Assembly (NCBI GenBank): GCA_963422465.1
Contig: OY730174.1
Span: 2,108,001-2,172,000 of the forward strand
Reading direction: 5' to 3'
Length of the DNA: 64,000 bases
Source of the DNA: Lichina pygmaea
Lineage: Eukaryota > Ascomycota > Lichinomycetes > Lichinales > Lichinaceae
Shown: piece by piece, positions 1-29,480 of the stretch
Layout of the letters: every line of letters starts with the position of its first letter
Numbering within the stretch: position 1 is the first letter of the stretch
Notes under the pieces: model-generated
What the model was told of the DNA's origin: nothing
Databases searched by the model: none
The model's input: the letters and a program-made list of their open reading frames with translations, nothing else
Program-made: the position numbers and the translations under genes

Positions 1-535
1 CAAGCCAGCACTTTGGCTATCACACAGCCCTTAGGCACTGGAGCGGCGACATCTCCTCGTACGACCACTCTCCTTCTTTAACAGGTGGTCCGCGTTCGAT
101 TAACAACACCGTGGTGCCAAGGCCACTCCCCCCCTAGCAGATCCTCACGCGTTAGCTGGAGACTCTGCTAGGAGGGTGACGTGACGAGAACTCCTCTCGA
201 CTACTCCAGAGGTGCCCTATCAGACGCCTAGACTTCACATCCACCAGCTGTGGGGCTGGCTTCGGGCTGTAGCGTACACGGTAGTTGTCTGTCAGGTGGT
301 TTTCATCTCCCAAGCTTGGTCGCAGTCCTCTGTTCTGCTGTAGCTGTTTCACAGGGGCGTCCAGGGTGCCTGCGCAACACCTCCGGTGGCCCGTCGCTCC
401 GCAACACCAGCAGCTCGACCGGTGACTCGATTAGCTCTCGGTGCAGCGACTACAAGCAGCCTGGGAAGCCGCCCGCCATCGACTGCCCCGAGGTTCCCAG
501 CCTGCACCACGTGGAGGTTCGAGTCGTTGCAGGCC
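1..535 (-). mobile_element. WEIRD-like 1.1-kb module, copy 1 (cut by window edge)
   Basis: Read on the minus strand, this is the first ~535 bp of a module that occurs complete at 12939-14061 and 28355-29480. Its 5' end is the same as in those copies (GGCCTGCRA...), directly against Gypsy gag sequence at 536. In the two complete copies the module is the 5' part of a composite whose 3' part is a truncated LINE, so a LINE tail is expected to the left of the window; that is inference. The copy keeps more CpG than the other two and has a 66-codon open stretch at 152-352 (minus) that is recognisable in the same frame in the other copies. No known domain is visible. Confidence 0.75.
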
Positions 536-2216
536 TGAAGATAGGTATACTGAAAAGGTATAATAGATCACAAGAGGGGATTGGAGCTATTCTTCTCTCA
601 GCTTGAGCTTTACTACAGATTCAACACTGTGCAATTTCTGACAGAATAGAAGAAGATACTATTCACAGTCTTCTACCTGGACAGACTGATATTTGCCTAG
701 TTCAACATCTACTTACAAGACTTCCTTAACAACAAGGAAAATCCTGTAAGTATAGAGACTATAACACAGCAGATCATCAGAAGTTTCTCAACCTTCAAAA
801 CCCAGATAAAGAAAATCTTCAGAGTTATTAACAAAGAGCAAGACACAGAACAAAAGCTCCAAGTACTATGGCAGACAGAGTCAGTATCAGACTTTGTGGT
901 GAAGTTCCAACAGCTGTCAGTAAGAACACAGTGGGGGGACAGTGTCTTGACTGCACTATTCTACTAAGTCCTCAAGGAACAAGTCAAGGATAACATCACA
1001 TAAGAAGACCAACCTACTGATCTTGAAGACATAATCAACACAGCAGTATACATCAACAACCAACAGTTCAAACAAGAACTTGAGAAGTGAGCCAAGTATA
1101 CAAAGCTATAGAGTAAGAAGATAACACCAGCACAGGACAAGTACAGCTTGATACCTATGGAAATTAACATAACAACACCACAGGCAACAAAGAAGAAAAA
1201 AACACAGAAGTGTTACAATTGCCAGAAGGTAGAACACCTCACAGCTAACTGCTGAAGCAAGAGAAAAGAAGAAGGCAAGAGTAAGCAGTTGAATACCACT
1301 GGTGCCTGGAAAAGCAAGGATATTCAGAAGCTACCAAGGACTCCCAGAGGTATGCTACCCATGAACCAGTCAGAAGTGACACTCCTCAGACAGAAGGACA
1401 ATCTCAAACAGCACATCAAAAAACTAGAGAACAATCTGCAGAAATCATTAGAGAACCTGCACATAGTCTAAGACCAGATTGACAAGGTTTACTAGGAGAA
1501 CAACCTGATCTCCAAATTTGACACAACAGACTACAAGATTGACATAACCAGTATACCACCAGTTCCCAAGACACTGATACTCTGATAACAGAACACAACC
1601 TTGTTGGAGACTGGTGAAACAAGAGTGATGTGATGGGTTTTTTTTGATTTGATTCTTACACTGTTTGTAGCTTTACAGCCATGCAGATCTTCCAGCTAAT
1701 AGTGAACTTCTTCAGAAAACTTTTAAAGGAATAAAAACTGAAGACAGCGAGGTGACTAGAAAGTGTAGCAAAAGGAAATCTTGTAGTGACTGGTAGGAAA
1801 AGCTTCTAGATGTTGGAGTGTGAATAGTGAAGTTTGAAAGCCAGATTAAATTGGTTTAGTCTTTTCAAAGACATAAACCAGTACAGAAACTTCTGTAGAA
1901 GCTCTGGGTTTGAAATAATAGTAGTGAAATCTTGGGGGTTAAAGAGAGCATGTTGTCTTTGACTTGAGTAGAGAGAGCATGAAGAGGTAATATGCTTTAC
2001 TGTCTCTTCTGCTTGACCACATATGCATAGGGGGGTAGGAAAGTCAGGGACTCCAGCTCTGAAAAGAAAACTTGCTAGACCAATTCTCCCAGTTCTGGTT
2101 TACAGTAGTAGACTTGCCTCAGCTTTCTGTAGCTCTTTGTAGAGCTTTAGGTTGTTGTAGTGAGGTTTTTGGCAAAACACCTGCCATCCAGTATAGCTTT
2201 TTCTTTTCTTCTCCTC

Positions 2217-4643
2217 CTATTGGTTTTCCCACTCTTTAGTAAAGAGTATTTGTAGTTCTTTCTTTGAACTAGCCTGGTTAGTAGTTATTTGACTTAACCA
2301 AGTGAGCTTCCAATTAGGAGAGATAGTTGAGGATTTCTTTAAAGGTTTCCTCAGTGAAGAAGTATAGAAAGAAATAGTAGAAAAGGTACTGTCAAGAAAG
2401 TCTTTCAGAGAGGAGGTTTGGATAGAAGATAGAAAACAAGCTGTGTGAAATTTAAAATAGAGATCTAGAGGTAAAAGAAAAAGCTCACTCTCTAATAGAA
2501 AAGAAGGAGTGGCTTTGAAAGCACCCCCAATAAGTCTCAGACATTTATTTTGGAATATGATAAGAGAGGAAATATTAGAGGATTTTCTGAGTGGGTTGAA
2601 CCAAATTCCCACTGCATAGCTCAGTACAGATCTGAGTATTGCAGTGTACACAAGGTGTGCTGTGAGAACTGGAAAGCCCCAGGTGGAGTAAGAGATTCTA
2701 GAAAGAGAAGATAGTGCTTTTTGTACTTTTTGAAGAATAATCCTCTGGTGTTTGTGCCAGTGGAGTTTGGCATCCAGGTACACTCCCAATACTCGCACTT
2801 CTTCTTTTGGTTTTAGAATCACATTCCCAAGTCTAAGCTTGAGCTGAAGATTGTCTGATCTTCTTCTGGAAAAATGAAGTATTTTATATTTCTCAGGAGA
2901 GAAGACTATTCCATGTCTTGCAGCCCAAGATAGACATTTAAGATGTGTATTCTTCAACTTCAGAACGTTGCTTTTAAGAGAGTGTCCAAATGCAAGCAGA
3001 TTTGTATCATCTGCAAATCCCAGAGTAGAAACACCAGTAGTAGGAGAATGTACAGTCTCATGAAGTTCAGAAATATAGAATAGAAAAAGAATAGGAGACA
3101 AAGAGGAACCTTGGGAAACTCCACAGTGAATAGGAATAGAAGAGGACTCAGAGTCATCAAAAACTAGGGTGGTGGTACGTCTGGTACAGAAAGAGAAGAT
3201 CCAAGAAGTTAACCAGAGAGGGATTCCTTTTCTCTCCAGAATCTTTTGAAGAATCTCTGGAAGAACTCTGTCATATGCTCCTGAGATGTCCAGAGAAAGT
3301 AGAGATGCAACCATGCCTTCTTTCCAGGCTTTTTCCACTTGGGAAGTTAGAAGGAAAAGTGCTGATTCAGTTGATCTGCCTTTCCTGAACTCCATCTGGA
3401 TTTCTGGCAAGAGTTTAGCCTCTTCTGCTACCTTGCTTAGTCTGGCTGCTGTAATAGCTTCCATCAGCTTACCAGTTGTGTTTAGTAGAGCTATAGGGCG
3501 CCAGGCTTTAGCTTGGTTATAGATTCCCTTGCCAGGTTTTCTTAGACAGACTGTTTTTGCATTCTTGAATTTCTCTGGAAAGTATTCCAGTCTCCAGCAT
3601 GTTGATGTGAGAACAGCTATAGCTTGGCAGAACTTGGGACCCAGAGCTTTCAGAAATCCATTTGGCAGCTTGTCTTTTCCTCCTGCTGTAAAAGGTTTCT
3701 TCTTGTTCAGAATTTGCTCTACTTCTTCAGTGGTAACCTTCTGAGAAAGCTGGATCTCTGGGGTACTCTGGTGACTTTCTGTACTTGGTTCTGGAACACG
3801 TGCTTCTGGAAAGAATTGAGCTGAGAAAGATTTTGTCTTCTCCTCAAAGCTTTTGGCTAGTCCTTCTTGAGTCTCCAGATCAGAGACCAGAGGAAGATCA
3901 GGGGTCTTGTTAGCTTTTGATTTTCCCCACTTTGCAAGCTTCCAGAATTTTGAGGAACTAGCTAGCTCATGAACTTGTTTTCTGAAGGTGTTCTGTTTGC
4001 CTTCTCTGACAGCTTTCTTCTTAAGCTTAGTTGCTTCTTCTAGCTCTTCTTGGCTTGCCTGTCCTCTGAGCACTTGTCTTCTTATTCTTCTTTCCTGCTT
4101 AACTTTAGTTTGGATCTCTTGGTTCCACCAGGGGACTGAGTGGCTAGATTGCTTCTGGAGTTCTGTGCATCTGTCTGCTATTCCTTGGAGAAAGTGGTTA
4201 AGATATTCCAAGTACTCATCCACTTCATGTTTATCTTGAAAGTGGAAGAGCAGCTGCAAATTATTACACTCTTGTTTTGCCAGGTTTGTGTCCAGTGTTT
4301 TCCAGTTCCTTTCTGGCTTCCAGGTTTTTCTTGGTGAGTCCAGGTCCAGGCTAGTTAGCACAGGTCTGTGGTCAGACCCATGAAAGAACTGCAAAGCAAT
4401 TTTAGAAAAGATTAGAGAGTTAGAAAGAGAAGAAGATATAGAGGAAAGATCAATAGGTGAACAGGGTTTGTGGGAAAGAGATCTAGCTCTTGTGGATGTA
4501 AAAGGTGCAATAGCTAACTCCAGATTTGAGTTTTTCATTAGAGTTTGGAACTTGTATGCAGTGTCAGAATATAGTCTTCTTTTCTTTGACCAGTCAGGGT
4601 GGTGAAGATTTGAGTCTGTAAGAAGAATATGCTGCCCTTTTGC
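2217..4643 (-). CDS. LINE-A ORF2, distal endonuclease plus reverse transcriptase (about 800 codons open)
   Basis: The frame is open without a stop for about 800 codons. In reading order there are the end of the endonuclease (TDSNLHHPDW and, further on, GSDHRPVL motifs), a charged linker, and the RT with the fingers motif RPIALLNTTGKL, the LDISGAYDRV motif, the GVSQGSSLSPILF motif and the catalytic GFADDTN near 3.0 kb. A C-terminal region follows that in other copies carries a CGQAEETVKH...C knuckle. The methionine near 4667 belongs to the inserted LINE fragment, so it is not the real start; the true frame enters from the endonuclease part at 5027-5431. Few CpG dinucleotides remain. Its openness may reflect youth or chance survival; I cannot tell whether it is active. 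Confidence 0.85.
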   Translation of the reverse strand, partial: AKGQHILLTDSNLHHPDWSKKRRLYSDTAYKFQTLMKNSNLELAIAPFTSTRARSLSHKPCSPIDLSSISSSLSNSLIFSKIALQFFHGSDHRPVLTSLDLDSPRKTWKPERNWKTLDTNLAKQECNNLQLLFHFQDKHEVDEYLEYLNHFLQGIADRCTELQKQSSHSVPWWNQEIQTKVKQERRIRRQVLRGQASQEELEEATKLKKKAVREGKQNTFRKQVHELASSSKFWKLAKWGKSKANKTPDLPLVSDLETQEGLAKSFEEKTKSFSAQFFPEARVPEPSTESHQSTPEIQLSQKVTTEEVEQILNKKKPFTAGGKDKLPNGFLKALGPKFCQAIAVLTSTCWRLEYFPEKFKNAKTVCLRKPGKGIYNQAKAWRPIALLNTTGKLMEAITAARLSKVAEEAKLLPEIQMEFRKGRSTESALFLLTSQVEKAWKEGMVASLLSLDISGAYDRVLPEILQKILERKGIPLWLTSWIFSFCTRRTTTLVFDDSESSSIPIHCGVSQGSSLSPILFLFYISELHETVHSPTTGVSTLGFADDTNLLAFGHSLKSNVLKLKNTHLKCLSWAARHGIVFSPEKYKILHFSRRRSDNLQLKLRLGNVILKPKEEVRVLGVYLDAKLHWHKHQRIILQKVQKALSSLSRISYSTWGFPVLTAHLVYTAILRSVLSYAVGIWFNPLRKSSNISSLIIFQNKCLRLIGGAFKATPSFLLESELFLLPLDLYFKFHTACFLSSIQTSSLKDFLDSTFSTISFYTSSLRKPLKKSSTISPNWKLTWLSQITTNQASSKKELQILFTKEWENQ

Positions 4644-5011
4644 AAAACATATCATCTCTTCATGCACTCTTTATTCAAGACAAAGACATCAAGTCTCTTT
4701 TAATCCCCAAGACTTCACCACTATTATTTCAAACCCAGAGCTACTACAGAAGTTCTTGTACTGGTTTATGTCTTTGAAAAGACTAAACCAGTTTAATCTA
4801 GCTTTCAAACTCCACTATTCCCAATCCAATACCTAGACTCTCTTCTCTTACCAGAAACTTCAAGATTCCTTTCGTTACATTCCCTAGTCACACCCTGCCT
4901 TCAGTTTTTATCCCTTCAAAGGTTTTCTGAAGGAGTTCACTATTAGCTAGAAGATCTGCATGGCTGTAAAGCTACTACCAGTGTAAGAATCAAATAAATA
5001 AAATAAAAAAA
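4644..5011 (+). mobile_element. 5'-truncated LINE fragment nested in LINE-A
   Basis: 368 bp on the plus strand, flanked by the 15-bp duplication ATGCTGCCCTTTTGC (4629-4643 and 5012-5026). It is the last part of a LINE: the end of the C-terminal knuckle region, the 3' UTR with the GCATGGCTGTAAAGC block, and an AAATAAA-rich tail. It is almost the same as the 3' end of the LINE at 30.75-31.13 kb, so both belong to one subfamily. It is the youngest LINE event in this stack. Confidence 0.9.
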
Positions 5012-5026
5012 ATGCTGCCCTTTTGC

Positions 5027-5431
5027 TTGTAAAGTATTTTGGAGTAGACAGAGAAGAGCTTCTGATGCTTGTAGGTAGTTCTCTTGACTTGAGGGAGTGA
5101 AGTATAGATTATGCACCCACAGAGAAGTAGAGGTGTTTTCCAGATGAATTTCAAGAGAAACAAAGTCTTTACTCCAGAAAGTAGAGTGGAGAGATGACAG
5201 TTTCAGGTTTTTGTTAATAAGAAAAAGAGTTCTACCAATCTCTGGAGAATATAAAGGAAGAAAAGAAGAAAAAACAGTTGAGGTGCTAGTTTGAAGATGA
5301 GGATTCTTCCAGAGTTCTTGAAGTGCAATAATATCTACTTCTTGAAGAGTTGGGGTGGCTAGAAGTAGCTCTTGGACTGATTGGCTTTTCTGCACATTGT
5401 ATTGAAGAAGTGTGAACTTTGTATTCTTCAT
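5027..5431 (-). CDS. LINE-A ORF2 N-terminal endonuclease, interrupted
   Basis: Start of ORF2: apurinic/apyrimidinic-type endonuclease. The N-terminal LLQYNVQKS motif and the ALQELWKNP motif correspond to the metal-binding Asn and Glu of the exonuclease-endonuclease-phosphatase fold. The frame is cut after the KGQHF motif by the LINE fragment at 4644-5011 (with its 15-bp duplication), after which the protein resumes as KGQHILLTDSN. The ORF1 end overlaps or abuts this start near 5430, as is usual in Tad-like LINEs. Function by family: nicks target DNA to prime reverse transcription. Confidence 0.8.
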
Positions 5432-6661
5432 GTAGACATTTCATCTTCAAAGATCTTGAAGGGGTTGACTGACTGCTTTCCCCCTGTGTTTGTTGATCTT
5501 GTAGACAGAATTTGCACTTCTGGAGACTCTCCTCTGAGTCTCTCTGAGCTTCTAGTTGGCTCTGTGGTTTTCTGTCTTTTTCCCTCTGGAAGAATCTGTG
5601 TGAAGTGGAAAGTAACTGGAGACTGTGTGACTGGGACAGTGGTAGCAGTGGAGATCTCATACTTCCCTGGGCAGGAAATCCATACCTCTCTTGGCTTCTT
5701 GACTGCTTCTTGGCGTACTGGGCATGTGCTAGCCCAAGCTGGGTGAGCTCCTTTGCAGTTGCTGCATTTTGGCTTTAGCAGTTGCTCAGGGATTTGGTAG
5801 GTTCTTCTTTCATGCTGGCCTCCACAGGCACCACATACAGCTTGATTCCTGCACAGGCAAGCTTGGTGTCCATACTCAAAGCACTTGAAGCATTGTGCCA
5901 CCACTGTGTTAGCCAGAAAAGGCTCTGCCTCATGCAATCTGTGGCCCAGCACTACTCCACTCTCAATTAGAAGATTAGCCTGTTCCGGGGTGGCCAGATC
6001 CAGGTGGAGTGAAGTAACTGGTTTCTTTTGAGCTATAGCCTTCTTTGACCAGTAGGCTCTTAGAATAGTGATTTGCTTGCTCAGGGATGGGTTGCTGTTG
6101 TGACGAGGCAATAGCAGAGCAGAACTCGAGCCTAACTGATTCAGTAACCTTGACCTGACTTGGCTTGAGACTTGAGACTTGGATTGATGTACAAGACGAA
6201 AGACAAGGAAGGAAGAAAAAGAGAAAAGAAGAGAAGAAGCTGGGGGAGCAGGAGAAGTTCTTATAGGCAGGGGATCAGGCAACAGCAGAGCAAACAGGCA
6301 ACAGTGCAGATGGAACTTCCCGGCAAGGTGTGTGACTTGTGCCAGATATGCAACTGGGCCAGAACTGTGACAGCTGTTCTGGATAGTCTGGCAAGTTTTT
6401 TCCAGGTTTTCTGGCTGGATTTCTGTGGTTCTGACTCCATGAATCAACACTGGGAATCTCTTGGGTTGGATAGTTGCTTCCTTGGTAAAAATAGCTGATA
6501 TCCAGGCAGAGTCTTTCTCCAGAAAACTCTTAGTCTCTTGGGTTTCAGTGTTAATAAGAATGTCCTCTGAGGGAAGTTTTCTCACTGCTCTGACTTGTTT
6601 ATTATAGGGACTGGGGAGTCTGTCTTGGAGAGCTTGAAAAAGCTGGATGTGGGTCCTGTTG
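5432..6661 (-). CDS. LINE-A ORF1, nucleic-acid-binding gag-like protein with an in-frame solo LTR
   Basis: ORF1 remnant on the minus strand, truncated at its 5' end by the incomplete insertion. It has the motif CFKCFEYGHQACLC, a second CGACGGQHERRTY and a third CSNCKGAHPAWASTC, i.e. tandem CCHC-like knuckles in the C-terminal half, the hallmark of Tad/I/Jockey ORF1 proteins that bind the LINE RNA. A 274-bp solo LTR plus its 5-bp duplication (279 bp, 93 codons) lies inside, and the frame stays open across it. Upstream of 6661 the frame runs on by chance into Gypsy sequence. Confidence 0.75.
6099..6372 (-). repeat. Solo LTR (274 bp) of the 21-kb Gypsy family, inside LINE-A ORF1
   Basis: On the minus strand it begins TGTCACAGTTCTGG and ends CCTCGTCACA, as do the LTRs of the element at 20987-26310. 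The 5-bp duplication GCTGT is at 6094-6098 and 6373-6377. No internal element sequence is attached, so it is a solo LTR. Confidence 0.95.
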
Positions 6662-8074: not shown

Positions 8075-10405
8075 TTTTTTTTGATTCTTACACTGATAGT
8101 AGCTTTTCAGCCATGCAGATCTTCTAGCTAAGAGTGAGTCTCTTCAGAAAACTTTTAAAGAAATAAAAACTGAAGACTGGGAGTGACTAGGGAATGTAGT
8201 AAAAGAAAATCTTGTAGTGACTGGTAGAAAGGAAACTTCTAGATACTAGAGTGTGAATAGTGGAGTTTGAAAGCCAGATTAAACTGGTTCAGTCTTTTCA
8301 AAAACATAAACCAGTATAGAAACTTCTGTAGAAGTTCTGGGTTTGAAATAATAGAAGTGAAATCTTGAGAATTAAAAAGGGCTTGCTATCTTTAACTTGA
8401 GTAAAGAGAGCATGAAGAGGTGATATGTTTCACTGTCTCTTCTGCTTGACCACAAATGCATAAAGGAGTAGGAAAATCTGGAACTCCAGCTCTGAATAGA
8501 AAACTTGCCAGGCCAATTCTCCCAGTTCTGGTTTGTAGTAGTAGACTTGCCTCAGCTTTCTGTAACTCTTTGTAGAGCTTCAGATTGTTGTGGTGAGGCT
8601 TTTGGTAAAACACCTGCCACCCAGAGTAGCTTCTTCTTTTCTTCTTCTCCTATTAGTCTTTCCACTCTTTAACAAAGAGCTTCTGTAGTTCTTTCTTTGA
8701 ACTAGTCTGGTTAGTAGTTATTTAGTTTAACCAAGTGAACTTCCAGTAGAGAGAGATAGTTGGAGATTGCTTTAAAGGTTTCTTCAGGGAAGAGGCATAG
8801 TGGGAGATATTAGAAAAAATATTATCCAGAAGTGATTTCAGAGAGGAGGTTTGAATAGAAGAGAGGAAACAGGCTGTGCAAAATTGGATAGAGATCTAGA
8901 GGTAAAAGAAAAAGCTCACTCTCTAATAAGAAAGATGGAGTGGCTTTAAAGGCACCTCCAATAAGTCTTAGATATTTGTTCTGGAATGTGATAAGAGAGG
9001 AAATATTAGAAGATTTTCTTAGAGGATTGAACCAGATCCCCACTGCATAGCTTAGTAAGGATCTGAGTATTGCAGTATACACAAGACATAATGTGAGAAC
9101 TGGGAAACCCCAAGTAGAGTATGAAGTTCTGGAGAGAGAGAAGAGTACTTTCTAGACTTTTTGAAGAATAATTCTCTGGTGCTTATACTAGTGGAGTTTT
9201 ACATCCAGGTACACTTCTAATACTCACACTTCTTCTTTTAGTCTTAGAATCACATTCCCCAGTCTGAGCTTAAGCTGAAGATTGTCTGATCTTCTTCTGG
9301 AAAAATAAAGTATTTTATATTTCTCAGAAGAGAAAACTATTCTATGTCTTGCAGCCCATGATAGATATTTGAGATGTGTGTTCTTCAACTTCAGAAGGTT
9401 GCTTTTTAGAGAGTGTCCAAATACAAGTAGATTTGTATTATCTGCAAATCCCAGAGCAGAAACACCAGTGGAAGAAGAATATACAGTTTCACGTAGTTCA
9501 GAAATATAAAATAGAAAAAGAATAGGAGATAAAGGGGAACCTTGGGGAACTCCACAGTGAATAGGAATAGAGGAAGACTCAGAGTCATCAAACACAAGAG
9601 TGGTAGAGTGACTAGTGCAGAAAGAGAAAATCCAGGAAGATAGCCAGAGAGGAATTCCTTTTCTCTCTAGGATTTGTTGGAGGATCTTAGGTAGAACTCT
9701 ATCATAGACTTCTGAGATATCCAGAGAGAGTAGAGATGCAACCATGCCTTCCTTCCAGACTTTTTTCACTTGGGAGGTCATTAGGAAGAGTGCTGATTCA
9801 GTTGATCTTTCTTTTCTGAAGTCTATCTGGATTTCTGGCAAAAGTTTAGCTTCTTCTGCTACCTTGCTTAGTCTGGCTGCTGTAATAGTTTCTATCAGCT
9901 TGCCAGTTGTGTTAAGCAAAGCTATAGGGTGCCAGACTTTAGCTTGGTTATAGCTTTCTTTGCCAGGTTTTCTTAGACAGACTGTCTTTGTATTCTTGAA
10001 TCTCTCAGGAAAGTATTCCAGTCTCCAGTATGTTGATGTGAGAATAGCTATAGCTTGGCAGAACTTGAGACTCAGAGCTTTCAGAAATCTATTTGGCAGC
10101 TTATCTTTTCCCCCTGCTGTAAAACATTTCTTCTTGTTTAGGATTTGCTCCACTTCTTCAGCTGTAACCTTCTGGGAGAGCTGGATCTCTGCAGTACTCT
10201 GGGATCTCTCTGTACTTGATTCTGGGGTGAGTGCTTTGGGAAAGAACTGGGCTGAGAATGCTTTTGTCTTCTCCTCAAAGGTTTTAGCTAGTCCTTCTTG
10301 AGTTTCCAAGTCTGGGACCAGAGGAAGATCAGGAGTTCTGTTGGCTTTTGTCTTTCCCCACTTTGCAAGCTTCCAGAATTTTGAGGAACTGGCTAGCTCA
10401 TGGAC
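8075..10405 (-). mobile_element. 5'-truncated LINE (LINE-B)
   Basis: Minus-strand LINE flanked by the 13-bp duplication TTTTGTACAAGGT (8062-8074 and 10406-10418), inserted in the RT region of the oldest Gypsy element. It begins just after the endonuclease. An open frame of about 400 codons (9224-10405) holds the linker and most of the RT including the GVPQGSPLSPILF motif. The catalytic motif reads FADNTN here instead of FADDTN, so the second catalytic Asp is lost. Distal parts (8.39-9.08 kb) are in other frames. The 3' tail has the GCATGGCTGAAAAGC variant of the shared block. Dead copy. Confidence 0.9.
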
Positions 10406-11859
10406 TTTTGTACAAGGTACAGGCACTACAAGTATACTGTTATACTATTCAGTCTTACAAATACACTGGTAATATTCTAATCACTTATTAACACTATCTT
10501 CTGACAAATTTTTTTTAATTTGATTCTTACACTGTTTGTAGCTTTACAGCCATGCAGATCTTCCAGCTAATAGTGAACTTCTTCAGAAAACCTTTAAAGA
10601 AATAAAAACTGAAGACAGAGAGGTGACTAGAAAGTGTAGCAAAAGGAAATCTTGTAGTGTCTGGTAGGAAAAGCTTCTAGATGTTGGAGTGTGAATAGTG
10701 AAGTTTAAAAGCTAGATTAAATTAGTTTAGTTTTTTCAAAAACATAAACCAGTACAGAAACTTATGTAGAAGCTCTGGGTTTGAAATAATAGTAGTGAAA
10801 TCTTGAGGGTTAAAAAGAGTATGTTGTTTTTAACTTGAGTAGAGAGAGTATGAAAAGGTAATATACTTTACTGTCTTTTCTGCTTGACCACACATGTATA
10901 GAGGGGTAGGAAAGTCAGAGACTCCAGCTCTGAAAAGAAAACTTGCTAGACTAATTCTCTCAGTTCTGGTTTGCAGTAGTAGACTTGCCTCAGCTTTCTG
11001 TAGCTTTTTGTAGAACTTCAGATTGTTGTAGTGAGATTTTTGGCAAAACACCGGCCATCCAGTATAGCTTCTTCTTTTCTTCTTCTTCTATTGGTTTTCC
11101 CACTCTTTAGTAAAAAGTATTTGTAGTCCTTTCTTTGAACTAGCCTGGTTAGTAGTTATTTGACTTAACCAAGTGAACTTCCAATTAGGAGAGATAGTTG
11201 AGGATTTCTTTAAAGATTTCCTCGGTGAAGAAGTATAGAAGGAAATAGTAGAAAAGGTACTGTCAAGAAAGTCTTTCAGAGAGGAGGTTTGGATAGAAGA
11301 TAGAAAACAAGCTATACAAAATTTAAAATAGAGATCTAGGGGTAAAAGAAAAAGCTCACTCTCTAATAGAAAAAAAGGAGTGGCTTTGAAAGCACCCTCA
11401 ATAAGTCTCAGACATTTGTTTTGGAATATGATGAGAGAGGAAATATTAGAGAATTTTCTGAGTGGGTTAAACCAAATTCCCACTGCATAGCTCAGTACAG
11501 ATCTGAGTATTGCAGTGTACACAAGATATACTGTGAGAACTGGAAAGCCCCAGGTGGAGTAAGAGATTCTAGAAAAAGAAGATAGTGCTTTTTGTACTTT
11601 TTGAAGAATAATTCTCTGGTGTTTGTGCTAGTGGAGTTTGGCATCCAGGTACACTCCCAATACTCACACTTCTTCTTTTGGTTTTAGAATCACATTCCCA
11701 AGTCTAAGCTTGAGCTGCAGATTGTCTGATCTTCTTCTAGAAAAATGAAGTATTTTATATTTCTCAGGAGAGAAGACTATTCCATGTCTTGCAGCTTAAG
11801 ATAGATATTTAAGATGTGTATTCTTCAACTTCAGAAGGTTGCTTTTAAGAGAATATCCA

Positions 11860-12453
11860 TGTTACGACCCAGGAGGAACACAGTCTTTATATACTCACAG
11901 AAAGCAGCAGACAGGATACTGGACAGAAGTACCAGACAGCGTGACACGGGAACCGGTCACGTGACCGGTGAGACAAACCAAGGGGTGCTTGCCGCAGCAT
12001 GCATATGCACGAACAAGTGAGCAAAGTGAGCAGAGCTCACCCAGCTCGCCGCAGCGTGCATGAAAAGTGAGCAAAGTGAGCAGAGCTCACCCAGCTCGCC
12101 GCAGCGTGCATGAAAAGTGAGCAAAGTGAGCAGAGCTCACCCAGCTCACTGCAGCGTGCATGAAAAGTGAGCAAAGTGAGCAGAGCTCACTCTGCTCACG
12201 AACTGGGCACTATATAGTCCGGCGATAGTTCCCCTATGGAACGATCGTCTTCAACTCATGTTGTGATCCAGACAACTAGATCTACTTCAATACAATCCTT
12301 TTGTACGAAGCCGTTGATCAGGTGTCACCACCACCACATTCCACCAAACCCCTTCGCGCTCCTTGACACTCCTCTCCTGCGAGAACCAACCCGCCTTCCG
12401 CCTCTCACCCTAATCCTATACTCGGATAGGACGGTACGGTACGGACCGCAACA
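11860..12453 (+). repeat. Solo LTR (594 bp) of the 34-kb Gypsy family, variant U3
   Basis: It starts TGTTACGACCC and ends CCGCAACA, with the 5-bp duplication ATCCA at 11855-11859 and 12454-12458. From the TATA region (ACTATATAGTCC, near 12.21 kb) to the end it matches the LTRs at 34070 and 40012 closely. The U3 part differs: it holds a 50-bp tandem repeat built on GTGAGCA and GAGCTC words in place of the GAGAC words of the other LTRs. It keeps many CpG sites, so it is young compared with the LINE it interrupts. Confidence 0.93.
12017..12199 (+). repeat. 50-bp tandem repeat in LTR U3 (about 3.6 copies)
   Basis: Units start at 12017, 12067, 12117 and 12167. Each contains GTGAGCAAAGTGAGCAGAGC, then CTCACCCAGCTC and GCAGCGTGCATGAAAA. 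The words GAGC and GCTC make short inverted repeats. The array lies directly upstream of the TATA box, where an LTR enhancer would sit. Confidence 0.95.
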
Positions 12454-12938
12454 ATCCAAATGCAAGCAGATTTGTATCATCTGCAATCTTCTGACAATAC
12501 CTGGATATATTTGTTACTGCTTATATTGACAATATCTTAGTCTACACCAATAGAACCTTGGAGAAGTATAAAGAGTATGTCAAGAAGATCCTACATACAC
12601 TCCAAGAAGTAGGAATAAGGTTATACCTTAATAAAAGTGTTTTCCACACGAAGGAAGTGGAGTACTTAGAATCAATTCTAACAACAGAAGGAATCTGTAT
12701 AGATAACTTGAAGACAGTAGTGGTACAAGAATAGCCAACACCCAAGAACCTCAAGAAAGTCTAATCCTTCCTAGAATTTATGAACTTCTACTGATGATTT
12801 ATCAAGGAGTACTCAAGGACAGTAGCACTCTTGACTAAACTAACAAAGAAAAAGGAAACTTTTACATAGGGGAACAGCCAGGAAAGAGTGTTCTAGAAGT
12901 TGAAAGAGAAGTTTACCTCTACACCTATACTGGCATCA

Positions 12939-14061
12939 GGCCTGCGACGACTCAAACCTCCACGTGGTGCAGGCTGGGAACCTCAGGGCAGCGATGGCAG
13001 ACAGTCTCCCAAGCTGCTTGTAGTCGCTGCACCGAGAGCTAATTGAGTCACCAGTCAAGCTGCTGGTGCCCACGGAGTGACAGGCCACCAGAGGTGTTGC
13101 GCAGGCACCCTGGACACCCCTGTGAAGTGACATCAGCAGAACAGAGGACTTCGACCAAACTGGTTATGAAAACCACCTGATAGATGTCTACTGTGTACGC
13201 TACAGCCTGAAGCCAGCCTTGCAACTGGTGGATGTGAAGTCTAGACACCTGACAGGGCACCTCTGGAGTAAACAAGAGGAGTTCCTATCGCACACCCCCC
13301 TTCTAGCAGAGTCTCCAGCAGCTGATGCATCAAGGATCTTGTTCTAGGAGAGGAGTGATGTCTGTACTGCAGTGTTGTTAATCAAACAGAGACTACATGT
13401 TAAAGAACGCAAGCAGGTGGCACGAAGAGTTTCCACCACTCCAGTACCTAAGAGCTGTGTGATAGTCAAAGTGCTGGCTTGATGGTTTTGCCTAAGGTCT
13501 TGCCACAGATTCTCTTCAGGCCACCTACAGACTGGGGCCAGGGCACTGGATCTCCAGTGGGCCACCACGTACAACCGGGGCCCCACAGACAACAGCGGGC
13601 AGATGGAGACTTCTCCCTACTTGGTTAGTGGACTGGAAAGGCAGTCCTGCAGGTGCTGGCATGGTCTGCAGGGTCTGTAGAGCCTGCGAGGCATGGTCGG
13701 TCTCTGTACAAGAGATCTACAGAGGTAACGCGAAACAGTGAGAGCTGTGGGGTGTGGTATATAATAGCAGTGACAGCAGTAGGGTCTGGGCCTACTACAA
13801 GACTGTCTATATGGCCCGAGAGGACAGAAGCGCATGCCGGTCTGTACAGAGTGCAGGCTCAGGCTGCAAATAACAGGCTCAAGGAGCAAACTGCAGTTGG
13901 AGTGTGGGCTCTGGGCTGGCAACCCAGCGCTCCGAAGCAGGACCTAGGGGTGAGCGTACACGGCAGAGCGCAAAAGGCCTCAGGACTGCGGGGAAGTGTG
14001 GCAGAGACCCTGCAAGGGATAGTGACTCTGCGCTATACTTCGGCATAGCTCAACTGTGGCC
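12939..14061 (+). repeat. WEIRD-like module, copy 2 (complete, 1123 bp)
   Basis: Complete copy from GGCCTGCGACG to CAACTGTGGCC. Both ends are the same as in copy 3, although the adjoining LINE sequences differ, which defines the module's true borders. No TIR or LTR is present beyond the GGCC letters at both ends. A coding-like stretch around 13.13-13.35 kb contains the motif LVDVKSRHLTGHLWS, shared in frame by all copies, and a second around 13.35-13.48 kb, but no domain is recognised and stops break both. Confidence 0.85.
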
Positions 14062-16212
14062 AGCCAGCCAACCACCAACAACACCAGCTATCTCAGGAAA
14101 TCTCCAAAGAAGATATACACAATATTTTGAAAAAGAAAAAACCTTTTACAGCTCCTGGGAAAGACACTCTACCCAACAGATTTCTAAAGGTATTAGGAGA
14201 CTCTTTCAATGAAAAGATAGCCAAAGTTCTGGAAGCCTGCTGGAAGCTAGAATATTTCCCTGACAGATACAAAGCAGCCAGAACAATATGCTTGAGAAAG
14301 TCTAGCAAAGGATCCTATTGCTATGCCAAAGCTTGGAGGCCAATAGCACTTCTCAACACAATTGGGAAGCTGATGGAAGCTCTGGCAGCCACAAAGCTAA
14401 GTGAACTGGCTGAGAAAGAAAACCTGCTACCAGAAATCCAGATGGGCTTCAGAAAAGGAAGATCAACTGAGTCTGCACTATTTCTACTCACTTCCCAAGT
14501 TGAAAAAGTCTGGAAGGAAGGAGTGGTAGCCAGTCTTCTTTCTCTGGATATCTCAGGAGCTTATAACAGAGTTCTGCCAGAAATTCTCAAGAAAATCCTG
14601 GAGAGAAAAGAAATCCCCAGCTGGTTTGTTAACTGGATCTTTTCTTTCACTAGCCAAAGAAAAACCTCTCTTGTTTTTGATGATTCAGAGTCTTCTTTGT
14701 TTCCAGTACACTGTGGAGTCTCTCAAGGTTCACCTCTCTCTCCTATTTTATTTCTTTTCTATATTTCAGATCTTCATTATATTGTTCATACACCAGAGAA
14801 AGGAGTATCAGCTCTGGGCTTTGCAGATGACACAAACCTTCTGGCATTTTCCTCTTCTCTTAAAAGCAATCTCCTGAAGCTAAAGTCTACTCACTCCAAG
14901 TGTTTAGACTGGGCAAGAAAACATGGAATGAAGTTTGCACCTGAAAAGTATGAACTTCTCTATTTTTCTAGAAGAAAAACACATAATCTTCAGCTCAGTC
15001 TAAGACTTGGAGAAGTGGTACTAGAGTCTAAGGAAGAAGTGTGTATTCTGGGACTACACTATGATTCCAAGCTTCTCTGGAAAAAACACCAGAAAATCAT
15101 GTTACAGAAAGCTTCCAAGTTTTTCTCAGCACTTTCCAGAACTACTTTTTCTACATGAGGTCTACCTGTTCTCTCTACTAGACTTGTCTACACTGCAATA
15201 CTGAGATCACTTCTCAGCTATGCAGTAGGAGTCTGGTTCAATCCCCACAAAAAACCTTCTAATATTTCTTCTCTAAATCTTTTCCAGACTAAATGTCTAA
15301 AAACTATAGGAGGTGTCTTCAAAGCTACTCCTACATTTCTTATTGAAGGAGAAATATTCCTACCACCTCTTGATCTTTATTTCAAATTCAGAACAGCAAC
15401 TTTCCTACAATCTTTCTATTTTTCTAATACTTCTTCTAATCCTCTCTCCTCAATTCTCTATAAGCTCTTTTCCCAGATCACTGTTTTTGTTTCTACTCTG
15501 AGAACACCTCCAAAGTCTCTGTCTACTGTCACACCTAACTGGAAAGCAAGATAGCTAGAAGAACTAATCACTAACCAAGATTACTCTAAGAAACAATTTC
15601 AAGAAGTGTTTCAGAAAGAGTGGGAAGCCAGATGGCAGGCAAACAGACAGAAGTGTTCTCCAGTCTGGGAGCTATTTTGCAGACTACCCCAAAGGAAAAA
15701 TCTCAAAGTTTTCAAAGACTTGAGAAAAGCTGAAGCTAGTCTTTACTTGCAGATTCTATCAGCAAGGATAGGACTAGCCAGCTTTCTTTTCAGAGCAAAT
15801 GTTCCAGCCTTCCAATCCCCTCTATGTTCCTGTAGTTTTGGAGAAAAGACTGCTCAACATATCACTTTCTCTTGTAACAAGCTTCTTACTCAAAGACAGC
15901 AAGCCACTTTTCTTTCCTACAATTTCTCTACCTTACTTCAAAAACCTAAAGTGCTTAAAGAATTTCTTCTCTGGTTTATGTCTTTGAAAAGACTAGACCA
16001 GTTTAACTTAGCACACCAGCTCTTACTAGAAAACCTATCATCTCTGTGATTTTATTTTCTCCAGACACTGCATATTCTCCCAGATAATTCCCTAGTCTTA
16101 CCCAAGTCTCAGTTTTCATTCCTCCAAAGGTTTTCTGGGAAAAAAAAGTATGTATCTAGAAGTTCTGCATGGCTCACCAGCCAAATCAGAGTAAGAATAA
16201 AATAAAATAAAA
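14062..16212 (+). mobile_element. LINE portion of chimera 1 (LINE-D subfamily)
   Basis: LINE 3' part on the plus strand. The RT is open from 14127 to 15158 (343 codons), with RPIALLNTIGKL, LDISGAYNRV, GVSQGSPLSPILF and the intact GFADDTN. The thumb region follows in other frames, and then a 147-codon stretch (15606-16049) with the knuckle CSFGEKTAQHITFSC. The 3' UTR ends CTGCATGGCTCACCAGCC and an AATAAAATAAAA tail. This subfamily is distinct from LINE-A/B/C/E: its protein is clearly divergent, and its tail is the one closest to that of the SINE at 18.2 kb. Confidence 0.9.
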
Positions 16213-17362
16213 TATACTGGCATCATTCAATCCCAGACAACAGATTATCATGGAGACAGATGCCTCAGACTAAGCACTTAGATCTTGCTTGTGTCAACCA
16301 GATACTGACAACTGCGTATACTCTGTCACATACTGATCAAGAAAGTTCTCTGGCCTAGAACTCAGGTATAATGTTTATAACAAGAAGTTGTTAGTAATTG
16401 TCAACATATTCCAGAAATGCAGACCTTACCTGGAAGAAGTAAAGTACATAATAGATGTGCACTCAGACCACAAGAATCTGGCTTACTTCACAACAACAAA
16501 GAAGCTAAACAGACAACAAGTCTAATAGGTGAAGCTATTAGCTTTATACAACTTCCAGATCTTCTATCAAAAAGGATCAGAAAACACACAAGTGGATATG
16601 CTTAGTAGGTGACCCGATATAATAACAGACAGTACAACTGAAGAACACCCAATCCTTGCAATAAAAAAACAAACTCTAGTCTATACTCAACCTCAGTTAG
16701 TGGAAACTGAAGAAACAGGTGCATTCCTGACTCTAGACCATAACTCTATGACCACAAACAAGGAAGAAGTGCTAGAGAGTGCACAAGAAAACATGATTTG
16801 ACAATATTATAATAGACTTCTACACAGACATCCTGGGTGAGACAAGACCCTGGAGAAAATCTGGAGATGTTACCACTTTAACAGAATAAAGTGGAAAATA
16901 ATAGAATTTATTTACAACTGTGAAGAGTGTGTGAAGAACAAACTATCACACCACAAACTTTATAGAGAGAGTCAACAAATAGACCTCCCAGAAGTAGCTT
17001 GGGATACTATCATAATAGATTTTGTGGTGAAATTACTGAAGTCTGAGAACAAGGTAACAAAAGTGAGATACAACAGTATCTTGGTGGTTGTGGACAAACT
17101 CACCAAATACACTCACCTGATTCTGTGGCAAGAGATAGGAACAGCAAGTAAACTCACCAACATCCTACTCAAAGAATTAGTTAACTAGTGAGGGCTACCA
17201 ACAAAGATTATCTCAGATCAAGACAAACTCTTTACTTTGAAATTCTAGAACATGTGGACAAGACAGCTAGAGATAGACATAAGGATATCTACCACCTACC
17301 ATCCACAGACAGACAGACAAACTGAGAGGACAAACTAAACAATAGAATAGTACCTACACTAC

Positions 17363-17635: not shown

Positions 17636-18204
17636 ACTACTACATCAATCATCAACAGGACAACTAGGTGGAGCTGTTACTGATAGCTCAGTTTGTGTAC
17701 AACAATCAGTAACATAGTATAATAGGTATAACACTGTTCTTTGCAAACTACAGCAAGAACACCTGCTGGGAAGTGACAGCAGCTGGAAGTGGCACTTCAA
17801 TAAATGTCAAGAAACTCACTGCTATACATGAGGAAATAAAAACTATGATTGAATCTGCACAACAAGCAACAAGCCACCACCTAAACAGTAAAAGGTTGAA
17901 GAGACCAACCCTGGAGAGGGGGGATAAGGTCTATTTGTCAACAAAAAACCTGTGCTTGAAACAACCAAGCAAAAAGCTGGATCATGTACAAATCAGACTG
18001 TTTAAGATTGAGAAGCACACTGGAGAAGTTAACTACTGACTGAGACTACCAAAGAAAGTATAGATACACTGAGTATTCTATGTCTCACTACTCAAGCCAG
18101 CACTCAGCAACACAGAAATCAAAACAGAATAGTACTTCAAGAATAACAAAGAAGAGTATGACATCAAAAGGATTCTGGACAGCTGAAAGAACAGATGGAA
18201 GATT

Positions 18205-18640
18205 TGATTTGATTTGATTTGATTCTTACACTGATTCGGCTGTTAAGCCATGCAGAACTTCTTGAAGGATTTTTGTCTCTGGTAGACTTGACTCGGAGAC
18301 CTCACGTATTTACCGTACACCCCGTGGTTTGTAGTGTACGTACTGTGGGAAAACCCCAAACCCTGTAGGGGAAATAGGAAAACCACAGTAATAAGGGTTT
18401 TGTGGATCTTGACAGATATTGGGTGAGCTATTTCTTGGGGGTTTTCATACATCTTGCGAGGAGTACATCTTAGACAAGTTCTATGAATCTCGGGGGTTTT
18501 TGTGGCAGAATGTGGGGTGGGTCAGATTCGAACTGACAACTAGTTTAGTCAGGTTCTCCAGGCCTGACACCACTAGTTCCGGGTCATAGGTGCCACGTAG
18601 TGGGAAACTCTCACCAGCTTCCCGCTACACCATGCCGCCC
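18205..18640 (-). mobile_element. tRNA-headed SINE with LINE-like 3' tail
   Basis: A 436-bp unit on the minus strand flanked by the 13-bp duplication CAGATGGAAGATT (18192-18204 and 18641-18653). The 5' end is a tRNA-like head: A box TGGTGTAGCGG (18622-18632), B box GTTCGAATC (18525-18533), a perfect T-arm stem GTCAG/CTGAC, and near-complementary ends GGGCGG...CCACCC. A unique body of about 250 bp follows. The last ~50 bp (AAGTTCTGCATGGCT..ACAGCC..AATCAGTGTAAGAATC) match the 3' ends of the resident LINEs, and the tail is (AAATC)n. It has no coding capacity. By family logic it is transcribed by RNA polymerase III and mobilised by a LINE reverse transcriptase. It is the only copy in the window. 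Confidence 0.88.
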
Positions 18641-24200: not shown

Positions 24201-26036
24201 TTGGAGTACTTCATGTCGTCAAAGTGCCTTTCCTGCTGTCAAGCCCGTTGGAGCGAGTTCTTGTCACGCTTCAATTTCAAGATCAGCTACCGTCCAGGCA
24301 GTCAGTGCAAGGCTGACACCCTCACTCGATGTTCCCAAGACCTCCCGTCAGACAGTGATCCCTGTCAAGACTTCAGGGAGCAAGTCGTCCTCAAGCCCAA
24401 GAATCTTGCACATTCAGAGGTTCAAGTCAAGCCCATCCAGATCCTGAGATGTTCAGAAGCTGCACCAGTTGACACTGAACCTGATGCTACACCTCTTTCA
24501 GACATCATCCAAGCTGCCTATAACAACCTTGCTGAAGGTGATCCAGTGGCAACAGTGTCACAGATGCTAAGGGATGGTGTCAGGCACAGTCGAGAAGTGT
24601 CTCTCTCAGACTGCAGCTTGGAAAATGACTATCTCTTCTACAAGAACTGACTCTGGATCCCTGAGAACGATGAGCTACGCCTACGCCTGTTCCAAGAAGC
24701 CCATGACCAAGCAATGGCTGGCCACACTGGGATTGCCAAGACCCACAATCTTCTGTCTTGTTGGTACTATTGGCCAAAGATGGTGAACATCATACGGCAG
24801 TATATCAGGAATTGTCATGTCTGCTCTCGAGCAAAGCCTGCCCGTGATCGCCAAGGAGAGCTGCTGTCTCTTCCCGTGCCTCAGCAACATTGGCAGGATC
24901 TGGCTATAGATTTCATTACTGACTTGCCCAAGTCAAGAGATACCTGCTTCCCTGGTGCCAAGCACATCTGGGTCATCACTGACTGTCTCACCAAAGAACA
25001 CCACTTTGTGCCATGTGCTGAGATGACAACCTCGCATCTTGTCTGGATGTTCATCCAGTTTGTTGTCTGTACCCATGGCTTGCCCAGGAGCATTGTCTCA
25101 GACAGAGGAGGTCAGTTTGTCAGCTCATTCTGGAAAGCACTCTGTGCCCATCTCGATGTCATGCTACGACTATCCTCAGGACACCACCCAGAGACAGATG
25201 GTCAGACAGAACGAGAGAATCAGGAGCTTGAACGCTACCTGAGATCCTATGTCAACTATCTCCAAGATGACTGGGTCCAATGGCTTCCTCTGGCAGAGTT
25301 CACGCAGAACAACTCCCAGTCTGATTCCTCTGGCATGTCACTGTTCTTTGCCAACAAAGGGTTCCATCCACAGCTCAGCATCACACCCACAAGTGAAGCC
25401 TGCAACCAAGATGCTATGGAAATCTCTGGAGAAATGACGCAGATTCTGGAACAGTTGCAAGCGGAACTCCGACTATCCCAGGAAGCTCAAGCTCACGCCG
25501 CCAATTTGCATCAAGTCCTGTCACCGTCCTATCAAACTGGAGATCTTGTTTGGCTGAATACCAAGAACATCAGGACACGCCGCCCATGCAAAAAGCTTGA
25601 CGACAAGTGGATTGGACTATTCAAGGTGTTGAAGACAGTCAGAAGCCGTGCCTGCCATCTGGAGCTTCCACACACTCTCAAGATCCACCCTGTCTTTCAC
25701 GTTTCCCTTCTACGTCTGACACCTGCTAATCCTATCCCTGGCCAATCAAATGAACACCCTGGCCCTGTCATTGGTCAAGACACAGATGAAGAGTTCCAGG
25801 TTGAAGAAATCCTTGACTCCAAGCCAGCAACGTCTTGACAGAAGTTCAAGTACCTGGTCAAATAGTCCGGATGGCCAATTGAAGATGCCACTGAAGAGCC
25901 TATTGAGCATCTTGACAACGCCAAAGACGCCATCTACAACTTCCATGAGAAATACCCAAGGAAACCACAGCCACAGAACTACGCCCACGAGCGGCCTGAG
26001 GCTCACAGGAGTTCGCGATGTGAAGGAGGGGGGTAA

Positions 26037-26310: not shown

Positions 26311-28354
26311 ACAGAGAACCTGAACAAGAGCTTTATTTAAGCATCTTCATCATCTGCTGCTACACCAGTCCTTTTTGTCAAGAAGCCAGAAGGTGGATTG
26401 TGTTTCTGTGTAGACTACAGAGCACTCAACACCATCACTATCAAGAACTGTTACCCCCTACCACTGATCTGGGAGATATTGGACTAGCTTTGCAAAGCTG
26501 TGTGGTACACCAAGCTTGATATTGTTGGTGCCTTCAACTGTATCTGGATGAAGGAAGGTGAAGAATGGAAGACTGCATTCCGCACACGCTCAGGTCTCTA
26601 CAAATACCTTGTCATGTCCTTTGGTCTTGCCAATACTCCAAGCACATTCCAGAACTACATCAATGATGTTTTGCGACCTGATATTCTTGACGTCTTTGGC
26701 ACTACCTATGTGGATGACATCCTTGTCTACAGTCAGACACTCAAGGAATACTAGAAGCATGTCAAGCTTGTTCTCAGTTGACTACAAGATGCAAGCCTGC
26801 AAGTTGACATCTCCAAGTGTGACTTTGAAGTCTATCAAGTCAAGTACCTTGGCCTCATCATTCAGTCTGCCACTGAAGATGGCTGACCCAGATCTGTGAG
26901 CATAGACCAGCCAAGACTGACACCATCAAGAAGTGGAATCCTCCTGCCAGTCTCAAGGAAGTGCAGAGCTTTATTGCCTTTGCAAACTTCTACTGCCAGT
27001 TCATCAAAGACTTTGCCAAGCTTGCATCCCTACTCACAGCTCTGACCAAGAAGAATGTTGCCTTCAAGTGGGAAACCCCAGAGCAGTGCTTGTTTGAAAG
27101 TATCAAGAAGGTGTTCAGCACTGCACTCATCCTGCAGCACTTTGATCTGGAGAAGGAGTGTGTTGTTGAGACTGACACTTCTGACTACATCTCTGGTGCT
27201 GTCCTGTCACAGCCAGATCATGAAGGAGTTTTACACCCTGTTGCCTTCTTGTCACACTGCCACCTGCCAGCAGAATACAACTACAAGATCTACAACAAAA
27301 AGTTGCTGGCAATTGTTCATGCCTTTGAAGAATAGTGAGCAGAGCTTGAAGGATCTCCAGAACCTGTCAAAGTGATCTCTGAGCACAAGAACTTGGAGTA
27401 CTTCGTGTTGTCAAAGTGCTTTTCCTGCTGTCAAGCCTGTTGGAGTGAGTTCTTATCACACTTCAATTTCAAGATCAGCTACTGTCCAGGCAGTCAGTGC
27501 AAGACCAACACCCTCACTTGATGTTCCTAAGACCTCCTGTCAGACAGTGATCTCTGTCAAGACTTCATGGAGTAAGTTGTCCTCAAGCCCAAGAATCTTG
27601 CACATTCAGAGGTTCAAGTCAAGTCTATCCAGATCCTGAGATGTTCAGAAGCTGCACCAGTTGACACTGAACCTGATGCTGCACCTCTTTCAGACATCAT
27701 CCAAGCTATCTATAACAACCTTACTGAAGGTGATCCAGTGGCAACAGTATCACAGATACTAAGAGATAGTGTCAGGCACAGTCAAGAAGTGTCTCTCTCA
27801 GACTGCAGCTTGGAAAATAACTGTCTCTTCTACAAGAACTGACTCTGGATCTCTGAGAACAATAAGCTACACCTACACCTGTTCCAAGAAGTCCATGACC
27901 AAGCAATGGCTGGCCACACTGGGATTGCCAAGACTTATAATCTTCTGTCTTGTTAGTACTATTAGCCAAAGATGGTGAATATTATACAGCAGTACATCAG
28001 GAATTGTCATGTCTGCTCTTAAGCAAAGCCTGCCCGTGATTGCCAAGGAGAGCTACTGTCTCTTCCTGTACCTCAGCAATGTTGGCAGGATCTGGCTATA
28101 GATTTCATTACTGACTTGCCCAAGTCAAGAGATACCTACTTCCCTGGTGCCAAGCACATCTGGGTCATCACTGACTGTCTCACCAAAGAACACCACTTTG
28201 TGCCATGTGCTGAGATAACAACCTCACATCTTGTCCAGATGTTCATCCAGTTTGTTGTCTGTACCCATGGCTTACTCAGGAGTATTGTCTCAGACAGAGA
28301 AGGTTAGTTTGTTAGCTTATTCTGGAAAGCACTCTGTGTCTATCTTGACATCAT

Positions 28355-29480
28355 GGCCTGCGAAGACTCAAACCTCCACGTGGTGCAGGCTGGGAACCTC
28401 GGGGCAGTGATGGCAGGCAGTCTCCCAAGCTGCTTGTAGTCGCTGCACCGAGAGCTAATTGAGTCACCAGTCGAGCTGCTAGTGCCCGTGGAGCGACGGG
28501 CCACCGGAGGTGTTGTGCAGGCACCCTGGACGCCCCTGTGAAGCAACATCAGCAGAACAGAGGACTTCAACCAAACTGGTTATGAAAACCACCCAACAGA
28601 TGTCTACCGTGTACGCTACAGCCTGAAGCCAGCCTTGCAACTGGTGGATGTGAAGTCTAGACACCTGACAGGGCACCTCTGGAGTAGATGAGAGGAGTTC
28701 CTATCGCACACCCCCCTTCTGGCAGAGTCTCCAGCAGCTGATGCATCAAGGATCTTGTTCTAGAAGGGGAGTGATGTCTGTACCACAGTGTTGTTAATCG
28801 AACAGGGACTACGTGTTAAAGAAGGTGAGCAGGTGGCACGAAGGGTTTCTGCCACTCCAGTACCTAAGGGCTGTGTGATAGTCAAAGTGCTGGCTTGATG
28901 GTTTTGCCTAAGGTCTTGCCACAGATTCTCTTCAGGCCACCTACAGACTGGGGCTAGGGCACTGGAGGTTCTCCAGTGGGCCACCACGTACATCCGGGGT
29001 CCCACAGGCAACAGCGGGCAGACGGAGACTTCTCCCTACTTGGTTAGTGGGCTGGAAAGATGGTTCTGCAGGTGCTGGCATAGCCTGCAGAGTCCGTAGA
29101 GCCTGCGAGGCATGGTCGGCCTCTGTACAAGAGATCTACAGAGATAACGTGAAACAGCGAGAGCTGCGGGGTGTGGTATATAATAGCAGTGACAGCAGTA
29201 GGGTCTGGGCCTACTACAAGACTGTCTATATGGCCTGAGAGGACGGAAGCGCATGCCGGTCTGTACAGAGTGCAGGCTCAGGCTGCAAATAACAGACTCA
29301 AGGAGCAAACTGCAGTTGGAGCGTGGGCTCCGGGCTGGCAACCCGGCGCTCTGAAGCAGGACCTAGGGGTGAGTGTACACGGCAGAGCGCAAAAGACCTC
29401 AGGACTGCGGGGAAGCGTGGCAGAGACCCTGCACGGGATGTCGACTCTGCGCTATGCCTCGGCATAGCTCAACTGTGGCC
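28355..29480 (+). repeat. WEIRD-like module, copy 3 (complete, 1126 bp)
   Basis: Same borders as copy 2 (GGCCTGCGAAG to CAACTGTGGCC). Close to copy 2 along its whole length, with differences mostly C/T and G/A. It contains the same coding-like stretch with LVDVKSRHLTGHLWS near 28.6-28.7 kb. Confidence 0.85.

Follow-up and report, generated by a model that had tools for sequence, protein, structure and literature searches.

A non-coding module headed by a predicted HDV-like ribozyme is joined to two lineages of truncated LINEs

In the 64-kb stretch of Lichina pygmaea DNA analysed here (the window), a module of about 1.12 kb is joined to the 5′ side of truncated LINEs. What is new is that the module starts with a predicted HDV-like ribozyme, the predicted cleavage site of which lies at the insertion border. 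There are two complete copies of this arrangement, each with the structure of a single insertion; the two have the same module ends, different LINE partners, and a 5′ fold that is compatible with a ribozyme. We infer template switching, self-cleavage and a free module RNA with that 3′ end, and we regard it as probable that a ribozyme-processed non-coding RNA (about 1.12 kb) was taken up by LINE template switching.

The first chimera lies on the plus strand. Its module (copy 1, 1123 bp) occupies positions 12939–14061, has the same 5′ and 3′ limits as module copy 2 and is 93% identical to it. The module is followed by a 5′-truncated LINE (family 1, 14062–16212), which comprises a reverse transcriptase (RT) domain (RVT_1, E 2.5e-31) in an open reading frame broken by stops, and an A-rich tail. 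The target-site duplication, TATACTGGCATCA, is found at 12926–12938 and again, as an exact 13-mer, at 16213–16225 (both plus strand), and the pair directly adjoins base 1 of the module and the A-rich tail of the LINE. The original prediction had placed the 13-bp repeat outside the module and the LINE, with none between them, and this was borne out: inspection of the sequence at the module–LINE border (14061/14062) revealed neither a duplication nor a tail, which were the features that had been named as speaking against it. Exact or near-exact 11–13-mers recur by chance near this chimera, but at arbitrary positions; the chance of an exact 13-mer at two preset borders is about 4^-13 (our own arithmetic). 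With one duplication retained, the degenerate frame of the flanking Gypsy element across the site is FTSTPILASFNPRQQIIMETDASD, with stops farther out on both sides. Because the duplication hugs the module start and the LINE tail, the border is clean and the Gypsy frame is continuous, chimera 1 was inserted as one piece, and the single 13-bp duplication around the module and the truncated LINE upholds the earlier claim that both parts entered as one unit. RVT_1 matches amino acids 60–308 of the translation from 14136, i.e., about 14313–15059; thus, the LINE part of the chimera (from 14062) begins about 250 bp upstream of the RT domain, in agreement with the claim that it begins just upstream of the RT. 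LINE-1 ORF2p and R2 were among the PDB matches of this RT (solved reverse transcriptase structures).

A BLAST comparison of the module with the window revealed two more copies, at 28355–29480 (plus strand) and at 535..1 (minus strand). Copy 2 (1126 bp), with a predicted HDV-like ribozyme at 28355–28465, is followed on the plus strand by a 5′-truncated LINE of a second family (29481–31125; RVT_1 E 2.4e-13), which is 67% identical to family 1 and 86% identical to the LINE at 1639–6661. The target-site duplication of chimera 2, TCTTGACATCAT, lies at 28343–28354 and is repeated at 31126–31137 (both plus strand); its length is 12–14 bp, as the edge bases are ambiguous. Of copy 3 (1..535, minus strand; 81% identical to copy 1) only the 5′ part is present before it leaves the window, with a predicted HDV-like ribozyme at 535..424. 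Thus, one short direct repeat encloses each complete chimera (13 bp for chimera 1, 12–14 bp for chimera 2), and both complete chimeras sit in Gypsy-like elements. For chimera 2, self-BLAST overlap and the sequences themselves show an empty target site in a paralogous Gypsy copy (25150–25163, plus strand): the target is single there and double around the chimera, with 11 of 14 bases identical, and the alignment of the Gypsy paralogues ends at 25163 on one flank and resumes at 25150 on the other, which gives a 14-bp overlap at the duplicated target.

Copy 2 ends at the same module base as copy 1 (...CTCAACTGTGGCC; the module sequence at this 3′ limit is CTGTGGCC) and then continues into a different LINE at a different LINE position. 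The 5′ end of the module is identical in all three copies and both ends are identical in the two complete ones, the 3′ end being fixed by these two copies. As the same module end joins two LINE lineages, each inside its own duplication, the module behaves, as judged from these sequences, like an RNA in its own right, the ends of which are fixed. Copy 2 has a perfect hairpin, GCUAUGC-CUCG-GCAUAGC, at its 3′ end (29451–29480), followed by a 12-base tail; copy 1 has one mismatch there (pairing by eye). This 3′-terminal hairpin might mark the position at which the RNA ends. Between copies 1 and 2 there are 68 transitions, 5 transversions and 6 gap columns. Of the transitions, 28 of 68 fall in CpG, 13 are G/A preceded by G, and few have the classical CpA context, unlike the outcome of CpA-directed RIP, which had been considered as the source of these differences.

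The module–LINE borders have GCC before A in copy 1 and GCC before T in copy 2 (2/2), and in both the module itself ends in GCC. Instead of GCC, three LINE sequences that align with the LINE of chimera 2 have GCA, GTC and GCT before the border. Because these relatives differ there, the GCC switch motif may be module sequence, of which two or three bases may be shared with the LINE. In Magnaporthe MINE, 28 chimerization sites gave the consensus GCC*A/U, in which GCC is LINE sequence; rows ending in GCC make up 11 of 18 in the junction table as printed, and the authors state that there is no microhomology at the chimerization sites (PMC2104539). The junction motif may partly reflect, we infer, pairing of the 3′ end of the module RNA with the cDNA. 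The borders also bear on the alternative that module and LINE entered separately, or were joined later by DNA recombination or splicing. This is scarcely credible, since the border is without duplication or tail and, in both chimeras, module and LINE lie together inside a duplication; splicing would require an AG ahead of the acceptor in the LINE of chimera 2, and was rejected as the source of the chimera because there is no AG at that border or in the three relatives.

Six LINE insertions in the window have both ends in view, and the module is carried by two of them. The other four, which have duplications identified at both ends, are plain 5′-truncated LINEs without the module: 1639–6661 (−), 8075–10405 (−), 4644–5011 (+) and 10508–12485 (−). 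The LINE domains seen are RVT_1, an endonuclease and a CCHC-like ORF1 (by eye), and the LINEs may belong to the Tad clade. When LINE RT was sought in viral contigs, three stretches fitted the pattern and none was confirmed. The insertion at 4644–5011 is a short LINE 3′ fragment, 97% identical to the LINE of chimera 2, with a 15-bp duplication, and lies inside the opposite-strand LINE 1639–6661; the latter also contains a repeat (6099–6375) with five further occurrences in the window. All six insertions appear 5′-truncated (for 1639–6661, this is judged from an ORF1 frame that is open through the 5′ border), so that a true LINE 5′ end is visible in none of them.

This leaves some room for a second alternative, in which a full-length LINE, belonging to a third or related family, would begin with a ribozyme and have the module as its 5′ untranslated region, and the chimeras would be internally shortened or LINE–LINE recombinant copies, like R2 SIDEs. 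HDV-like ribozymes are indeed known at the exact 5′ ends of elements in several non-LTR clades (PMC3774820, PMC3414825), namely R2, R4, L1 and RTE clade elements (PMC3774820), and the LINEs in the window never have their own 5′ end in view. However, modules that are 93% identical sit on LINE lineages that are 67% identical; both lineages lose the module at the same base, whereas the LINE break points differ; and LINE 1639–6661 extends into ORF1, yet is without module sequence. Such an origin had been named as evidence against the original prediction and is judged unlikely, because copy 2 joins another LINE lineage, at another position, at the same module end. The one module end with two LINE positions also makes template switching by the LINE reverse transcriptase, as originally proposed, the best-supported mechanism.

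The uptake of a ribozyme-processed RNA can be set out as follows. Each chimera would be the product of one LINE-driven insertion, in which target-primed reverse transcription would start at the 3′ tail of the LINE RNA. The reverse transcriptase would quit the LINE RNA within the RT region or a little upstream of it, and would restart at the 3′ end of another RNA, which is non-coding and about 1.12 kb long, copying it to its first base before integration. An HDV-like ribozyme heading the module RNA would remove upstream sequence by self-cleavage, and it is proposed that this trimming is the reason for the exact 5′ end in all three copies.

A predicted HDV-like ribozyme is present at the module start in 3/3 copies, with the predicted cleavage site at the insertion border. 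In copy 1 (12939–13049, plus strand), where the assignment draws on an RF00094 match of 31.8 bits at 12937–13011, a descriptor match and pair counts, cleavage is predicted between 12938 and 12939. The fold was built by hand, using sequence downstream of the Rfam match. In module numbering, the predicted stems of copy 1 are P1 (1–7/31–37), P2 (11–17/105–111), P3 (18–20/28–30), P1.1 (22–23/38–39) and P4 (44–48 plus 50–56/86–92 plus 94–98). P1 has 7 bp with a G-U first pair, P3 is ACC/GGU, P2 has 7 bp and abuts P3 (17/18), and P4 has 12 bp with one internal G-A mismatch, to which copy 1 adds an A-C mismatch and copy 3 one inserted base. The candidate catalytic C in J4/2 is module base 101, i.e., window position 13039 (102 in copy 3), and lies in GCUAA just 5′ of P2′ in all three copies. 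The nested double pseudoknot of P1, P2, P3, P1.1 and P4 fits 3/3 copies, with standard pairs in 98.9% of 93 pair cells; the figure falls to 29–38% when the partner is shifted by 1–3 columns, the structure having been derived from the same three sequences. One P2 pair covaries, from A-U in copies 1 and 2 to G-C in copy 3, and 166 of 500 shuffles reach this, which is not significant with three sequences.

At gathering scores, Rfam gave nothing in the 64-kb window (the gathering score of RF00094 is 50). The lax Rfam match to HDV_ribozyme at 12937–13011 has 31.8 bits, below that score, and an E value of 0.019 for 1.2 kb and of 0.0026 for 161 bases. A lax search of positions 1–33000, both strands, placed RF00094 in full length at the three module 5′ ends, with 31.8, 31.7 and 28.8 bits for copies 1, 2 and 3 (all below 50) and E values over 33 kb of 0.53, 0.57 and 2, respectively. 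In all three copies, the matches begin 2 bases ahead of module base 1. The Rfam alignment puts P4 and J4/2 elsewhere than the hand-built fold does; the fold that it implies has poor P2 and P4 and was rejected, as a better fold is obtained with sequence about 30 bases further on. A topology descriptor, which was written after the fold was seen, has three matches on both strands of the window, all at module base 1, compared with 14 matches in 120 shuffled windows (0.12 per window) and 1 in 300 module shuffles; given their homology, the three copies amount to a single instance. In the ribozyme core, copy 3 has 94–95% identity to copies 1 and 2, compared with 80–83% in the module downstream of base 111 (Fisher p 0.0004 and 0.005). 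Core conservation lends weak support to a ribozyme, because it is absent between copies 1 and 2 (no extra core conservation, p 0.24) and because high conservation spans about the first 180–200 module bases.

Fungal HDV ribozyme variants have been described (230 in 26 species), and the two variant constructs that were tested cleaved, with the site at the base of P1 (PMC5640933). Typical features of those variants are C-G at the cleavage site, an additional base separating P2 from P3, and loop E in P4 (PMC5640933), whereas the ribozyme predicted here has a G-U first pair and a P2 that abuts P3. The main text of that paper has 0 matches for retrotransposon, transposable or retroelement (PMC5640933).

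Several other identities were considered for the module. As a protein-coding sequence it was rejected, as no Pfam domain was found at the curated cut-off in the four ORF stretches scanned of the 19 ORFs listed. As a known RNA other than HDV it was likewise rejected, as the lax Rfam search gave two other names only, with E values of 2 and 2.7. Core words of the module had 0 exact matches in the viral and prokaryote collections, and no solo module gene was seen in the 64-kb window. A rod-like fold of the viroid or retrozyme kind was not supported, the folding z scores being -0.6 to -1.7 for either strand of copies 1 and 2 (25 shuffles for each), and no minus-strand ribozyme was present among the lax Rfam matches of the module or the HDV descriptor matches on the modules. 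We regard as quite improbable the suggestion that WEIRD-type modules (WEIRD being the corresponding part of MINE) are unit-length RNAs, released from a tandem or circular RNA by one HDV-like ribozyme that cuts both ends, i.e., a retrozyme-like parasite without a protein of its own, which would enter the genome only via the LINE reverse transcriptase. If true, it would account for the precision of both ends, for the absence of coding capacity and for the lack of a solo WEIRD gene in Magnaporthe.

The surroundings contain further repeats. A SINE of 440 bp (18201–18640, minus strand), which by eye is tRNA-like with a B-box-like stretch, has a 9-bp duplication, TTCCATCTG; its 59-bp 3′ end is 86% identical to the tail of the LINE of chimera 1, a SINE/LINE pair like Mg-SINE and MGL. 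ARAGORN found no tRNA in the 64-kb window. A 50-bp unit forms an array (3.8 copies) at 12006–12197, next to a 247-bp stretch that is repeated at 34423 and 40365. A 600-bp direct repeat (34070–34669 and 40012–40611, 95% identical, with 42-bp tandem units) flanks a Gypsy RT/RNase H ORF, and these repeats are possibly LTRs with internal tandem repeats. Genes at 41–62 kb include those for a Kelch protein, an isocitrate dehydrogenase-like protein, a 60KD_IMP-type membrane protein, ALG11, a C2H2 zinc finger protein and TCF25, a set that is suggestive of a filamentous ascomycete.

The closest known counterpart is MINE (WEIRD-MGL) of Magnaporthe, in which a non-coding module of about 1.1 kb likewise lies 5′ of a variably truncated LINE in the same orientation, by direct fusion, within one target-site duplication, and with GCC before A/T at the junctions (PMC2104539), although here the GCC may be module sequence. 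The occurrence, twice, of the module and a truncated LINE within one duplication supports the MINE-like architecture that had been proposed. The 5′ part of MINE is a full-length copy of a cellular RNA (PMC2104539); here, both ends of the module DNA are constant in 2/2 complete copies, and the 5′ end in 3/3 copies. Unlike MINE (PMC2104539), the module here is joined to two diverged LINE lineages and has a predicted HDV-like ribozyme at its 5′ end, the word ribozyme occurring 0 times in the text of PMC2104539. WEIRD itself, a 1.1-kb RNA, is expressed; in the Magnaporthe genome it occurs exclusively in fusion with retroelements, and its nature was left open in 2007 (PMC2104539).

Descent from a common ancestor with WEIRD, such that the module would be its local counterpart, diverged beyond the two primers compared, is compatible with uptake of a ribozyme-processed RNA by template switching, and is possible, if doubtful. 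The lengths are close (1123 versus 1113 nt; PMC2104539), no coding capacity was found, the module is full-length and 5′ of truncated LINEs with GCC before A or T at the junctions, and a SINE has its tail in common with the LINE. However, the two 20-base WEIRD primers match the module in at best 11–12 of 20 bases, in a comparison limited to two primer sites, and the authors found no significant WEIRD similarity in the other genomes then available (PMC2104539).

The R2/R1 hybrid SIDEs of Drosophila resemble the arrangement predicted here, in that they begin with an HDV-like ribozyme, which is followed by the 3′ part of a different kind of LINE, and have the target-site duplication of that LINE (PMC3414825). 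There, the ribozyme is immediately upstream of the R1 3′ end, at the rDNA site (PMC3414825), whereas here there is a 1.1-kb body, Gypsy sites and two LINE partners. In mammalian LINE chimeras with U6, 7SL and other RNAs, a cellular RNA copy is likewise found 5′ of a truncated LINE via template switching (PMC2104539); those RNAs are known cellular ones, unlike the putative 1.1-kb RNA here with its predicted ribozyme head. The efficiency of R2-based insertion is raised when the template has a stable ribozyme fold at its 5′ end (PMC11331408). Among the matches listed from the open-licence literature, there was no link of WEIRD or fungal LINE chimeras to a ribozyme.

The two insertions, with different LINEs, suggest that the predicted ribozyme sets the start of an RNA that has been repeatedly captured by LINEs. 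A ribozyme heading a WEIRD-like module would give it a function that is testable in vitro and would provide a reason for the exact 5′ end, and such a head is a possible reason for the repeated capture of the module by LINE enzymes. It would place a fungal HDV-like ribozyme in the context of a mobile element, and would show one module to be common to two LINE lineages.
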